64,000 bases of DNA from Proteus vulgaris (GTDB lineage: Bacteria; Pseudomonadota; Gammaproteobacteria; Enterobacterales; Enterobacteriaceae): assembly GCF_033708015.1 (NCBI RefSeq), contig NZ_CP137920.1, positions 1,612,001 through 1,676,000 on the forward strand. Reading direction: 5' to 3'. Within the stretch, counting starts at the first letter, position 1; the number at the start of each line of letters is the position of its first letter. The translations under genes and the position numbers were made by a program. Shown one piece after another: positions 3,360 through 29,663 of this stretch. The notes under the pieces were generated by a model. That model did not search any database. It saw nothing but the letters and a program-made list of their open reading frames with translations, and was not told the DNA's origin.

Positions 3360-4606
3360 TGGCGCAATTGCCACTTGCATTAGTGACCGCATTACGTTTT
3401 TCAAGAGGGCGAAAACGTGCGGGAATGGTTTCTTTAATTTCAGTTATTTCAACACTGGGCATTATGCTTGGTGTTGCTGTTTTAATTATTGGCCTAAGTG
3501 CGATGAATGGGTTTGAACGTGAATTAAAAAATCGTATTTTATCTGTGGTGCCTCACGGACAAATTTATTCAGTAGAACAGCCATTTGTACAATGGCAATC
3601 AGCATTACCTCGTATTGAAAATACCCAAGGTGTTGTTGCTGCGGCTCCTTATATTTTACTCACTGGATTATTAGAAAAAGGAACCGAGTTAAAAGCGGTG
3701 CAGGTTATGGGAGTCTCACCTGAGAAACAAGGTGATATCAGTTTATTACCTCAATATGTACAAAATAATGCATGGCAAGATTTTAAGGCGGGTAAGCAAC
3801 AGATTATTATTGGGCAGGGTGTTGCTGATGCATTAAAGATCAAACAAGGTGATTGGCTCACCGTATTGATCCCTAATAATGATGATCCAACTAAGCTTTT
3901 ACAACCTAAACGTATTCGCTTACAAGTGAGTGGCATATTTAAACTGAGTGGTATGCTCGATCATCAATTAGCGTTAATTCCTTTAGCTGATGCTCAGCAA
4001 TACATGGATTATGGGCATGGCATTACAGGGATTGAAGTGAAAACAGTAGATCCTTTTTTCGCGAATGAAATTATTCATAATGCAGGTTTAAATAGCGAAG
4101 AGTATGTTTATGCCAAAAGTTGGATAAGTGATTATGGCTATATGTATAGCGATATTCAGATGATCCGCAGCATTATGTATTTATCGATGATCTTAGTGAT
4201 TGGTGTCGCTTGTTTCAATATTGTCTCAACGTTGATTATGGCGGTAAGAGATAAAAGTAGTGATATTGCTATCTTGCGAACGTTAGGTGCAAGAGACAGT
4301 CATATTCGTAATATCTTTTTATGGTACGGCTTATTATCTGGCATGATTGGCTGTATTGCTGGTGTGATATTCGGTGTATTGGTTGCTTATAACTTAACGC
4401 CATTAGTATCTATTATTGAATCATTAACGGGACATAGTGTGTTGTCTGGCGATGTTTATTTCGTCGATTTTCTACCTTCAGAAGTGCATTTAATTGATGT
4501 TTTCTCTGTATTTATTACCACTGTGATCTTAAGCCTGATTGCAAGTTGGTATCCTGCACGTCGAGCCACTAAACTAGATCCTGCAAGAATTTTAAGTGGA
4601 CAATAA
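3359..4606 (+). CDS. lolE: Lipoprotein-releasing ABC transporter permease LolE
   Basis: Second membrane subunit of LolCDE, the one that contacts the lipoprotein substrate first in E. coli. It has 415 residues, matching the family length. Membrane segment 1 (about 22-47) is followed by [16 protein letters not shown], then a periplasmic domain, and a C-terminal FtsX-like domain with three more segments. The C-terminus [17 protein letters not shown] is characteristic. Translation is coupled to lolD through TAATG at 3357-3361. In E. coli nagK and then cobB follow; here nagK is absent and cobB is next after 85 bp. Confidence 0.97.
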
Positions 4607-26481: not shown

Positions 26482-27503
26482 AATTATTATTAACGCCTTA
26501 TATTCAGCCAGAACTTGGTGTTGTGTTGCTTAAACCGGGTGCTGAATTACTTGAGCAATTTAAAAATCACCATCGTGTGATTATCAGTGATGTGCCTAAA
26601 AGTTTAGATGTGCTGCCCTCAGGTGCATTAACGGGTGATGAACAGCCTATTTTAAACAATAAGCACATCGTCCAATTTCTCAATAGTAAAAAAGTGATCC
26701 ACACCATCGATAAGGTGGCACCGATGGATACATGGGTTATTCGTCATATTCAATGCTGTCAGATCGATAACGATGAAGATAATTATCATCACCATGAATT
26801 AGTAACGACCTTTCATGAAGTGGGTGTAATCCGCACTTGTTGGCATCACGATAATCATATTAGAAATTCATCTGCTGGGTGGGTTGCTGAATTGGCCCAT
26901 AAAAACCGCATTAACTGGATGTTAGATACTATTCGTAGTCGCTTGAGATTAGATGATGGCCACCAGCTAACGATACCTGATTTTTTCTCATTTGCAGTAA
27001 TGCATAGTTTGGTTGATGAATTACCCGAAGCAATATTACGCCAGATTTTAAATTGGTCAGATAAACAAGAAGAACGCAGAGTTCACGGTGGTTTTCCTGA
27101 GGCAGATATTATTCCAAGCAACGTAACTGCATTATCTGTAATGAATGAACGTTTAGATGCGATAAAGCCGGTTATTAAAGTATCTGTCGATCCGGAGCCA
27201 CCAGCGTCATTTCTTCTTAAACCTAAAATGCAACGTTGGGAAAGCCCCGACTGGCTCCAATGGGTAAAGACTCAACCGTGTTGCGTGTGTGGGCAACAGG
27301 CTGATGATCCGCACCACATCATAGGTCATGGCATGGGCGGTATGGGTACTAAGGCTCACGACTTATTCACTATTCCATTATGCCGCATTCACCATGATGA
27401 GTTACATCGAGACCCAAAACAATGGGAAGCCACTCACGGCAATCAACTCGAATTGTTATTTCATTTTTTAAACCGTTCATTAGGCATCGGTGCATTTATT
27501 TAA
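26478..27503 (+). CDS. DUF968 phage protein with HNH-like C-terminus
   Basis: A 341-residue protein of the DUF968 type found next to rusA and Q in lambdoid prophages. The C-terminal 90 residues look like an HNH-type nuclease or zinc site: PCCVCGQQADDPHHIIGHG, then PLCRIHHDELHRDP (His/Cys-rich). The N-terminal two thirds hold a His-rich stretch (DNYHHHELVTTF and CWHHDNHIRNS) with no known fold visible to me. It starts in ATGA overlap with the preceding small gene. Nuclease activity is inferred. Confidence 0.78.
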   Translation: MKLLLTPYIQPELGVVLLKPGAELLEQFKNHHRVIISDVPKSLDVLPSGALTGDEQPILNNKHIVQFLNSKKVIHTIDKVAPMDTWVIRHIQCCQIDNDEDNYHHHELVTTFHEVGVIRTCWHHDNHIRNSSAGWVAELAHKNRINWMLDTIRSRLRLDDGHQLTIPDFFSFAVMHSLVDELPEAILRQILNWSDKQEERRVHGGFPEADIIPSNVTALSVMNERLDAIKPVIKVSVDPEPPASFLLKPKMQRWESPDWLQWVKTQPCCVCGQQADDPHHIIGHGMGGMGTKAHDLFTIPLCRIHHDELHRDPKQWEATHGNQLELLFHFLNRSLGIGAFI

Positions 27504-27531
27504 CGTGTGTACGGCACGAGGAGTATTAAGT

Positions 27532-27879
27532 ATGAGAGATATTCAAACTAGATTAGAGCTATGGGGGGCATGGGCAGCATCAGAAAATAGTGGTGTTGAT
27601 TGGAAACCTATAGCCGCAGGCTTTAATGGATTATTACCTAATACAAAAAAATCCAGACTTAGGTGTGATGATGATGAAGGAATACTTTTAGACAGTTGTG
27701 TAGCATGTTTGAAAAAATATCAACCTAGAGAATACGAATTAATTATAGCTCATTTTGTTGTCGGAATATCTTTACGTAATATAGCTAAAAAAAGAAAGTG
27801 CGCTGATGGTACAGTAAGAAAAGAACTTCAATCAGCAATGGGTTTTATAAATGGTTGTTTATGTTTTATTTTAATTTGA
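27532..27879 (+). CDS. Late gene antiterminator Q
   Basis: Q-type antiterminator (phage_antitermQ family) that lets RNA polymerase read through terminators into the late genes. From MRDIQTRLELWGAWAA (start 27532, GAGGAG upstream) it has 115 residues, with DWKPIAAGFNGLLP, LRCDDDEGILLDSCVA and the C-terminal HTH ISLRNIAKKRKCADGTVRKEL. The ending (CLCFILI) looks slightly altered. A nonsense-riddled second gene of this family lies at 32077-32412, nearer the lysis genes. Confidence 0.88.
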   Translation: MRDIQTRLELWGAWAASENSGVDWKPIAAGFNGLLPNTKKSRLRCDDDEGILLDSCVACLKKYQPREYELIIAHFVVGISLRNIAKKRKCADGTVRKELQSAMGFINGCLCFILI

Positions 27880-27891
27880 ACTTATAATCCT

Positions 27892-27920
27892 AAAAGCCAC
27901 AATTGTGGCTTATTCTTTAT
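27892..27920. terminator. Terminator between Q and the rexB-like gene
   Basis: AAGCCAC-AATT-GTGGCTT is a perfect palindrome at 27894-27911, with T-rich sequence to the right and A-rich to the left. It can end both converging units. Confidence 0.8.
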
Positions 27921-28395
27921 TCAGATCTCTTTTTTCTTTAAATAATTCCTTTATTTTCAAAGGAATAAAGGTGGATTGGATAAAAGAAAAACAGGTTAAA
28001 AATGAAATGGTATAGCTAATAAAAGATTTCGTTAATAAAAAACATTCACTAGTGTTGTTTTTATCCTTAGATAGTAGATAAAAGATAAAAATTAACGCAA
28101 GAGTTAATATATAGAGTAGAAACAACATATAATATTTATTAAATCTCATTAAAAACCGTCTTTCCTGATTTTCTTCGTCAAGTAATGAAAGTCCATTCAT
28201 AATTGTTGAATTTTCACCTGACATGGTTATTACTAGCAGTAAAAAGCCAGAAAGAATAGAAAAAACGTTAGCAACAAGATTTAGTGCATCAGTATTGTTT
28301 ATTAAGCTATAAGTAAGAAAATAAGAAAACATAGCTGAGGCTAGCATATTAAATGCTGTTATAAGTATTCCTTTTAAGTTAATATTTTTAAACAT
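27910..28395 (-). CDS. Four-segment membrane protein, RexB-like candidate
   Basis: A 161-residue protein with four hydrophobic segments (about 10-31, 38-59, 88-109, 122-146) and a basic C-terminal tail. It is the second gene of a two-gene minus-strand unit, 23 bp after the 273-aa gene, with AGAGAGG before the ATG. Size, topology and order match lambda RexB (144 aa, four segments), the membrane effector of Rex exclusion. I see no convincing residue-by-residue similarity, so the name is a hypothesis. Kiwa's KwaA is another four-segment protein but pairs in the opposite order. Confidence 0.6.
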   Translation of the reverse strand: MFKNINLKGILITAFNMLASAMFSYFLTYSLINNTDALNLVANVFSILSGFLLLVITMSGENSTIMNGLSLLDEENQERRFLMRFNKYYMLFLLYILTLALIFIFYLLSKDKNNTSECFLLTKSFISYTISFLTCFSFIQSTFIPLKIKELFKEKRDLNKE

Positions 28396-28418
28396 GTTAG
28401 CCTCTCTATTTCTCTGTA

Positions 28419-29240
28419 TTATAACTCTTTTACAGCGAAATCTTCTAGAATTTCTTTAGCATATTTAGCATTGATGGATTTTGAGCCATATGGAACAGTA
28501 TAGTATGTTTTTGTGAGCTTCATATCATCACCATATATTTTTTCACCTTTTTTGGTCTCAATATAAAAATCAGAAGCAAGATCTCCAATCCATTTAGAGG
28601 GATTTTTTTCTATCGATTGAGCTAAATCTGCGTTTCCAGATGCATCAATTTTTAGATGTCCTGTAATTCCTTTAGTTTTTGTCTTTGGTTCATTTTTGAA
28701 TATTGATTCTAAAAATTTGGGGGTCTTAACAAAATCAGATTCATCAACAGAAAGATCAAGATGCAAAGCTCTTAATTTTTGCTCTTTAATCTTATCAATA
28801 ACTTTTTTTTCTAAAATTGGAGTTGGCGTGATTTTAATCCCAAATTGCTCAAAAATAAGAGCAATTTTTTTTTCACACCAATTGGTTGATATTTGCATTA
28901 GTGATGCGATCTTATTATTTTTCACTAATAAAAAAGCATGTAGATTATCTAGATTTTCGACATCTAATAAATCCTTTGTTTTGTTATTACTTGGAGTGAT
29001 AGAAACTTGTTCTTTGGGGTTGTATAAAGCAAAATGTAAATAATGATAATTTGTCGTTGTTGAAAAGCTTTTTAATTTTAGATGCTTATCTTTACTTATT
29101 TTAATTATAGTATTAGGGACAAATTTTTTCGAGTTAGATATTTGATCAAAAAGAATATTTTTAGATGATGTATTAACTTTAAATGCTCTAACTAAGCATT
29201 TTTTTGTATTTCCATCTTTTTTAGAGTCAGAAAAATTCAT
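28419..29240 (-). CDS. Soluble partner, RexA-like candidate
   Basis: A 273-residue soluble, Lys-rich protein, close in length to lambda RexA (279). By eye the two share a pattern: a central LHAFLLVKNNKIASL against RexA PSFLFVEGDTIGFAR, a later hydrophobic FLESIFKN, and a C-terminal GKxKIxxxxN...NPSKWIGDLASDFYIETKKG against NPSPQFSDISLRAKDEAG. It has its own promoter, opposite to the phage late operon, which fits expression in the lysogen. RexA senses infecting phage and activates RexB in lambda; that role is inference here. Confidence 0.62.
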   Translation of the reverse strand: MNFSDSKKDGNTKKCLVRAFKVNTSSKNILFDQISNSKKFVPNTIIKISKDKHLKLKSFSTTTNYHYLHFALYNPKEQVSITPSNNKTKDLLDVENLDNLHAFLLVKNNKIASLMQISTNWCEKKIALIFEQFGIKITPTPILEKKVIDKIKEQKLRALHLDLSVDESDFVKTPKFLESIFKNEPKTKTKGITGHLKIDASGNADLAQSIEKNPSKWIGDLASDFYIETKKGEKIYGDDMKLTKTYYTVPYGSKSINAKYAKEILEDFAVKEL

Positions 29241-29272: not shown

Positions 29273-29301
29273 ATTGTAGTAAAAAACTAACGCGTACGCA
29301 A
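29273..29301 (-). promoter_or_regulatory. Candidate promoter of the rexA/rexB-like unit
   Basis: Minus strand TTGCGT (29301-29296), a 17-base spacer and TACAAT (29278-29273), 33 bp upstream of the first gene. A GCGTACGC palindrome overlaps the -35. Confidence 0.55.
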
Positions 29302-29409
29302 AAAAGTTGGTATTGTGATAAGAATAAAAACTTTGCCGCATAACTTATGGAATATAATTTCCTTTTTTGGGTTCTTTTATACCTAGATTTATTTAAAACT
29401 TGCCTTTCT

Positions 29410-29456
29410 CTTTGGTCAGAGTTACATGTGTAGTTATGCACGATAACTGACCAAAG
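29410..29456. promoter_or_regulatory. Inverted repeat upstream of the small wHTH gene
   Basis: CTTTGGTCAG (29410-29419) and CTGACCAAAG (29447-29456) are exact complements, 13 bp before the next ATG. It could be an operator or an RNA hairpin. Confidence 0.5.
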
Positions 29457-29468
29457 GTATAAAATATC

Positions 29469-29663
29469 ATGTTAAAACAGTATGATATGACAACGCAGGC
29501 AAGTTGTGTACTTGAAACAATCTCAAAAAGTGATTGGCAAACAGTACAAGCGATTTCAAATCAAACTGGATTAAGTAATGAAAATTGTGAGTTTTTATTA
29601 ACTCAGTTTGAAATAGCAGGGTTTGTCGCAAAGCAAGGAAATAGCTATATGCGTACAGCCTAA
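29469..29663 (+). CDS. Small winged-helix-like protein
   Basis: Sixty-four residues (MLKQYDMTTQASCVLETISK...). QTVQAISNQTGLSNENCEFLL reads as an HTH and FEIAGFVAKQGNSYMR as a wing, so it may bind DNA. It is monocistronic: an inverted repeat precedes it and a terminator follows. Only weak ribosome binding sequence is visible. Similar short proteins are common in prophages; function unknown. Confidence 0.55.
   Translation: MLKQYDMTTQASCVLETISKSDWQTVQAISNQTGLSNENCEFLLTQFEIAGFVAKQGNSYMRTA

Follow-up and report, generated by a model that had tools for sequence, protein, structure and literature searches.

In phage lambda, rexA and rexB are arranged as a gene for a soluble protein followed by a gene for a small multi-pass membrane protein, directly behind cI and on the cI transcript. 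A two-gene prophage pair of P. putida, RexABpp (PP_5643/PP_5644), is similarly described as a soluble protein with a four-helix membrane protein; it was missed by BLAST, and its tested activity includes RexB-dependent membrane damage triggered by RexA overexpression (PMC12894663). Fixed phage sites with varied, mostly unannotated cargo including defence genes are reported for the hotspots of P2 and P4 (PMC9122126, PMC9519451). In phi80, the defence gene taiEcA lies antisense to the late genes and is expressed in the lysogen; according to that account, the TaiEcA level was the same after mitomycin induction and was lowered only by Q overexpression (PMC11364771). Phages 21 and L have a Q protein with the domain PF06530, which is assigned to the Q21 family (PMC7171158), and a 16-bp element upstream of the late start; as reported, this Q-binding element differs between the two phages along with Q, the element of phage L being itself a prediction (PMC8022706). 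Here we compare with these systems a locus in a 64,000-nucleotide stretch of Proteus vulgaris DNA (assembly GCF_033708015.1, contig NZ_CP137920.1, positions 1,612,001 to 1,676,000), referred to in its full length as the window.

A two-gene unit between Q and the late genes

The pair is located on the minus strand between Q and the late genes with the 273-aa gene first, and both ORFs are present with the sizes given in a first-pass annotation of this DNA, which had described a minus-strand unit of 273 and then 161 aa. The neighbouring Q carries the PF06530 domain of Q21-type antiterminators. The features of the region, in window coordinates, are as follows.

27490..27879, plus strand: Q antiterminator of the Q21 family (PF06530 match, 1.9e-43)
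27894..27911, no strand assigned: stem-loop terminator at the junction of Q and the pair, an 18-bp palindrome (sequence and terminator scan)
27910..28395, minus strand: ORF for the 161-aa small multi-pass membrane protein, RexB-like by layout
28419..29240, minus strand: ORF for the 273-aa soluble protein, RexA-like by layout; phrog_23561, no annotated function
29273..29278, minus strand: -10 TACAAT of the cargo promoter, 17-bp spacer (locus comparison)
29288..29303, no strand assigned: 16-bp palindromic block TAACGCGTACGCAAAA (late strand), candidate Q-binding element (locus comparison)
29296..29301, minus strand: -35 TTGCGT of the cargo promoter, within the 16-bp block (locus comparison)
29311..29316, plus strand: -10 TATTGT of the late promoter pR' (T1, A2 and T6 kept in 127 of 127 distinct loci)
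29317..29325, plus strand: second -10-like element after pR', GATAAGAAT in the window and TGnTAAGAGT in most relatives

The unit had also been credited with a promoter of its own and with a bidirectional terminator shared with Q. A stem-loop with a T-rich tail was found at 27894-27911 in the direction of Q (the scan gave two terminator-like sites against 0.5 expected), but no terminator was flagged for the minus strand, on which the stem is followed by TTAGGATTAT. The promoter was recovered by comparison between loci (-35 TTGCGT, 17 bp, -10 TACAAT, at 29301-29273), but not by a generic promoter scan, which yielded nothing above chance (7 sites against 10.4 expected) and did not list it. With its own promoter, seen by comparison rather than by the generic scan, its terminator and its orientation opposite to the flanking genes, the pair has the make-up of a moron. 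On account of TATAAT at 27883-27888, placement of the late promoter at the 3' end of Q, the arrangement of phage 21, had been considered; it was dropped because the bases directly after Q vary between loci. Of the four membrane segments claimed for the 161-aa protein, three passed a crude hydropathy cut-off that returned four in lambda RexB, while the fourth is plausible by eye only.

Neither protein had a PADLOC match or a Pfam or NCBIfam match above cut-off, and PDB sequence searches returned weak, unrelated matches only. Assignments of the 161-aa protein to DUF4064, DUF3522, E1-E2 ATPase or BrkB were discarded as weak Pfam matches below the cut-offs. In a search of 5.8 billion proteins, the 273-aa protein had 63 homologs and the 161-aa protein 136 (120 of these listed); among the matches listed, the named sources were mainly Enterobacterales, plus Aeromonas. 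In all 39 IMG/VR viral loci fetched with the 273-aa family, the gene for the soluble protein is followed by the adjacent gene for the membrane protein, and in all 39 a Q gene of the Q21 type (PF06530) is convergent with the pair. The two genes form a conserved pair, more than chance would give. One version of the pair was matched at the DNA level by at least 16 of 5,426 complete E. coli genomes, 15 of them over at least 80% of its length; E. coli NT1F25, the one genome examined, has it between Q and the holin gene. Among 394 genomes sampled from the order, the 273-aa family was found only in the window's own.

Relation of the pair to lambda RexA and RexB

The first-pass annotation had read the pair as a displaced, diverged Rex-type exclusion system, citing lengths and order parallel to those of lambda rexA and rexB and short motifs aligning by eye with RexA. 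The layout does match, with the same order and similar lengths; the motifs found no support in any profile comparison. HMM-HMM comparison by hhalign detected no homology to RexA or RexB (probabilities 0.1-0.3%). With shallow profiles (family Neff 2.0-2.8), the 273-aa family gave E values of 0.25, 0.21 and 0.45 against RexA sets of one, four and five sequences. The 161-aa family gave 0.37, 0.29 and 0.21 against RexB. When 23 targets (17 decoy clusters and 6 named) were ranked by the 161-aa profile, lambda RexB came 21st; the best matches outside the family were partner proteins from other cargoes of the slot described below (clusters C31, C29 and C13), none of them significant. For want of profile support, a displaced lambda Rex as a proven homolog was rejected. 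The word "displaced" is itself misleading, because the family is usually found beside Q (39 of 39 loci), in what is a general cargo slot.

The pair differs from lambda rexAB in having no detectable sequence similarity, in lying beside Q and in being driven by its own promoter instead of the cI transcript. A position directly downstream of cI, which the window pair does not have, was found only in the branch of coliphage 2G7b, where both proteins have distant homologs (30.5% and 39.2%) encoded directly behind cI, that is, at the rexAB position; in viral loci L018-L056 the pair is beside Q. The 2G7b branch is the best link of the pair to Rex. In a further locus, L016, homologs of both genes lie behind a different repressor-like ORF, and its A gene is cut short.

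A true remote homolog of lambda RexAB, with the same fold (RdgC-like RexA) and the same ancestor but diverged past sequence detection, would be in keeping with the shared order, the similar lengths and the cI-linked branch in 2G7b. There is also a precedent in RexABpp, reported to be likewise without an informative BLAST match and tied to RexA by HHpred and fold (PMC12894663). Given hhalign E values of 0.21-0.45 against RexA and 0.21-0.37 against RexB, we consider common descent rather doubtful. What stands of the earlier claim is its functional side, which makes a good reading in view of the matching layout, the branch at the rexAB place in 2G7b and the defence-type genes that use the same site: the pair may be regarded as a RexAB-type exclusion module by analogy rather than membership. 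Its descent from lambda Rex is not supported by the profiles. The pair represents a new family within a functional kind already known.

A search with RexA within the window's class returned L271, a real RexA relative, together with five weak matches. RexA/RexB pairs with overlapping ORFs were observed in two genomes of this class but of other orders, with sizes of about 304 aa + 156 aa (L271) and 309 aa + 158 aa (L278). Profiles of RexA and RexB to which L271 had been added still did not reach the window's families; L278 was compared only as a single RexB target in the decoy ranking. A bridge candidate, L269, one of two weak same-class matches, resembles an MsrB-type protein by eye.

The RexB profile built from lambda-type sequences and L271 aligned with the membrane partner of a DUF6731 cargo from the slot at a probability of 74.5% (E 2.7e-5), compared with 1.1% for the reversed control and 12.3% without L271. 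Another slot cargo may therefore be a closer RexB relative than the 161-aa protein, and the DUF6731 cargo is a candidate RexAB-type system. It consists of a DUF6731 protein and a membrane protein of 144-159 aa and was observed at L166:3890-5298 and in L073 (cargo clusters C30/C31). Adding this partner to the RexB profile left the 161-aa family unlinked (E 0.38).

The promoter region and its 16-bp block

In 34 distinct sequences, that of the window included, the DNA upstream of the 273-aa gene has in common a block around GCGTACGC and some 45 bases more; past these, most of the similarity is lost. The sequence TTGCGTACGC was present in 38 of the 39 loci found by the 273-aa protein, the remaining locus (L039) beginning at the gene. 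Read in the cargo direction, the region contains the -35 TTGCGT and, after 17 bp, a -10 in which T1, A2 and T6 are kept in 102, 100 and 98 of 130 distinct loci. Read in the late direction, it contains a -10 of the form TAnnnT in 127 of 127 distinct loci, followed by TGnTAAGAGT and, in many relatives, by a GC-rich hairpin. We interpret this layout as that of a Q-dependent late promoter, pR', in which the hairpin would serve as terminator and the second -10-like element is a probable promoter-proximal pause site. The candidate Q-binding block contains the -35 of the cargo promoter, and the divergent cargo and late promoters overlap.

In the window the hairpin after pR' looks eroded by eye (29325-29400), and termination there may therefore be weak. 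Further downstream, an inverted repeat at 29410-29456 with perfect outer arms of 10 bp (CTTTGGTCAG...CTGACCAAAG), possibly an operator, is located just before a 64-aa ORF (29469-29663) that has weak winged-helix matches only.

The block varies between Q subgroups. Among 115 phage records with a relative of Q, seven (six phages, SfII twice) had a Q at least 60% identical to that of the window, and the same seven accessions were those with a long promoter-region match; one of them, Kp4865-4, has the block with one base changed. Two other phage records gave short, weak promoter-region matches only. No long match was obtained for the other 108 Q-bearing records at the sensitivity of blastn with one query; one of these, 2G7b, carries a different block on the scaffold. 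On the same scaffold, the palindrome GCGGTCCGC occurs in SfIV and mEp390 (Q about 54%) and the palindrome TTTACGTACGTAA in the E. coli quuD prophage and 2G7b (2G7b Q 45.5%); no such scaffold was seen in the stretch fetched from PhiR5_1 (Q 54.9%). One scaffold is thus combined with three block variants for three Q subgroups (two examples each), and a -10 lies downstream of an element that differs between the subgroups, as in Q21-type late promoters. The block is a candidate Q-binding element, its variation with Q, in a small sample of other subgroups, being as expected of one. The elements of phages 21 and L are described instead as tandem 8-bp repeats, in phage 21 overlapping the end of Q (PMC8022706); the present block is a palindrome and, in 151 of 152 distinct stretches, is found behind the cargo, 0.6-3.8 kb past Q.

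Viral (at least 120) and genome (72) loci were collected by exact match to the 16-mer, and invariance of the block among them is by construction. The late -10 signature was present in 38 of the 72 genome loci (36 from Enterobacterales, 2 from Actinobacillus); the other 34, from many phyla and including three Enterobacterales records, we take for chance matches. The two Actinobacillus loci (L211, L214) have the late-promoter block and -10 outside Enterobacterales. Within the order, the exact 16-mer was detected in 6 of the 394 sampled genomes, of which one, L190, lacks the promoter scaffold around it. Among the complete E. coli genomes (5,426), 3,673 matched the promoter region, 2,968 of them over 80% or more of the query; many of these matches represent the quuD subgroup with another block.

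A cargo slot and a proposed role for Q

The pair is one of many occupants of the interval between Q and the block. The 120 or more loci of the viral 16-mer scan comprised 97 with Q (88 without the pair, 9 with it), while 10 had the pair, one of them without Q at a contig end, and 22 had neither, 20 of which end within 2.2 kb. In other loci the interval holds other genes, which run antisense to the late genes. Inclusion of genome and phage loci brought the number with the signature to 203, 168 of them with Q, giving 152 distinct Q-to-block stretches. The pair was present in 41 of these, 36 of which had also been found in the search by the 273-aa protein; among the 28 genome loci with Q, five hold the Rex-like pair. 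The distance from Q to the block ranged from 604 to 3,754 bp, except for 124 bp at one nearly empty site (L216), and ORFs on the cargo strand outnumbered those on the late strand in 151 of 152 stretches, the exception being the same empty site. The loci form 29 groups, 28 with cargo and one (L216) without; one cargo type (L121) is doubtful because its ORFs include a Q fragment.

At the nearly empty slot, from Serratia grimesii, three tandem 16-bp blocks were observed at about 4113-4451, each followed by TAnnnT. Late-promoter elements are thus repeated there, and Q ends 124 bp from the nearest block.

Position between Q and pR' could suit a regulator of lysogeny or of the late genes, the soluble protein tuning the phage's switch or late promoter and exclusion being a by-product. 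Such a role has been proposed for RexA, which is reported to bias the lambda switch (PMC11077077). However, no specific regulatory role is needed at a slot that about 28 cargo types occupy, and we judge a regulator unlikely.

Of the 50 cargo representatives, 30 were scanned with Pfam; 13 of these had a domain above cut-off and 17 had none. The matches were NA37 (two), KwaB, RelA_SpoT, GmrSD_N, HEPN, AAA_15/21, C5 methylase, Metallophos+NACHT, DUF6731, a metallo-beta-lactamase fold, DUF6575 and AAA_21, and combinations within a slot include GmrSD with HEPN and an ATPase with a partner C5 methyltransferase. Eight of the 13 we take to be of defence type (KwaB, RelA_SpoT, GmrSD_N, HEPN, AAA_15/21, C5 methyltransferase, Metallophos+NACHT and AAA_21). 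PADLOC matched 259 families among the 50 representatives, and the 25 listed each match only two members. The layout of a small soluble plus a membrane protein recurs in other slot cargoes. The commonest cargo other than the Rex-like pair (L154/L164 type, clusters C1/C2) encodes a protein of about 308 aa and a multi-pass protein of 176-189 aa, with no Pfam match at E<=0.01.

The KwaB-type cargo bears on Kiwa (KwaAB), which the first-pass annotation had named as the alternative identity. A Kiwa variant would likewise join a small membrane protein to a soluble partner, and KwaB-type cargo exists in this very slot. Nevertheless, the 273-aa protein had no KwaB (PF16162) match at E<=1, hhalign gave E 0.66 against the KwaB-type cluster, and the gene order of the pair is the reverse of that of the KwaB-type cargo. 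This identity was rejected as highly improbable.

Some cargo is of another kind. In the E. coli quuD/essD prophage (DLP12, porin NmpC) and in 2G7b the slot is filled by a porin, a non-defence cargo; SfIV and mEp390 have antisense hypothetical genes. The pair might by this example be a non-defence moron that is expressed from a lysogen promoter and serves host fitness, the cell surface or membrane physiology. The defence type that we assign to 8 of the 13 Pfam-bearing representatives and the occurrence of the pair also at the rexAB place speak against this, and we find it improbable.

With fixed flanks and 28 cargo types (one doubtful) that include known defence domains, the slot has the features of a defence hotspot. 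It is a hotspot of interchangeable, often defence-like cargoes, probably under the control of Q. The P2 and P4 hotspots, as described (PMC9122126, PMC9519451), differ from it: here the phages are lambdoid, the slot extends from Q to pR', and the cargo is antisense, with a fixed promoter that overlaps the late promoter. The tai defence of phi80 is placed elsewhere in the late operon and consists of a single defence gene with a separate counter-gene, and the available account describes no promoter shared with pR' (PMC11364771). Among the titles, abstracts and passages listed for us from open-licence PMC text, none describes the slot.

Our preferred reading, which we hold with slightly more confidence than doubt and by analogy, is that the pair would be a prophage two-gene exclusion (abortive-infection) module, RexAB-like, one of about 28 slot cargoes, with a cargo promoter lowered by Q. 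The conserved pairing, the 2G7b branch, the defence-type proteins in the slot, the recurring soluble-plus-membrane layout, the promoter and block anatomy and the precedents of RexABpp and taiEcA count in its favour. Against it count the lack of profile homology to Rex and of domain matches, the porin cargo, the unchanged TaiEcA level after mitomycin, the absence of the scaffold from the PhiR5_1 stretch and the eroded hairpin of the window. In the lysogen, where Q is lacking, the cargo promoter would fire leftward and the pair would be made. The 273-aa soluble protein would sense an infecting phage, probably through the phage DNA or DNA-protein intermediates, and once activated would trigger the 161-aa membrane protein; this in turn would damage or de-energise the membrane, so that growth stops before the invader multiplies, in line with what is reported for RexABpp. 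Upon induction, Q would bind at pR' and late transcription would start. Because the -35 of the cargo promoter lies in the block, cargo expression should then fall, the takeover of the promoter region by Q sparing the prophage itself. Somewhat more tentatively, and at a little under even chances, we propose that Q could also be the off-switch of defence cargo in general, its occupancy together with RNA polymerase at pR' excluding cargo transcription.

If this is true, any defence system in the slot would be on in the lysogen and off in the phage's own lytic cycle. Such an arrangement would provide generic self-immunity without a cognate immunity gene, and arbitrary defences could be carried without self-harm. 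The slot itself offers a plain, testable rule as to where interchangeable defence-type genes are kept in a large group of lambdoid prophages. The DNA signature finds slot cargo regardless of protein family, and the 17 scanned representatives without a Pfam domain are candidate new systems.
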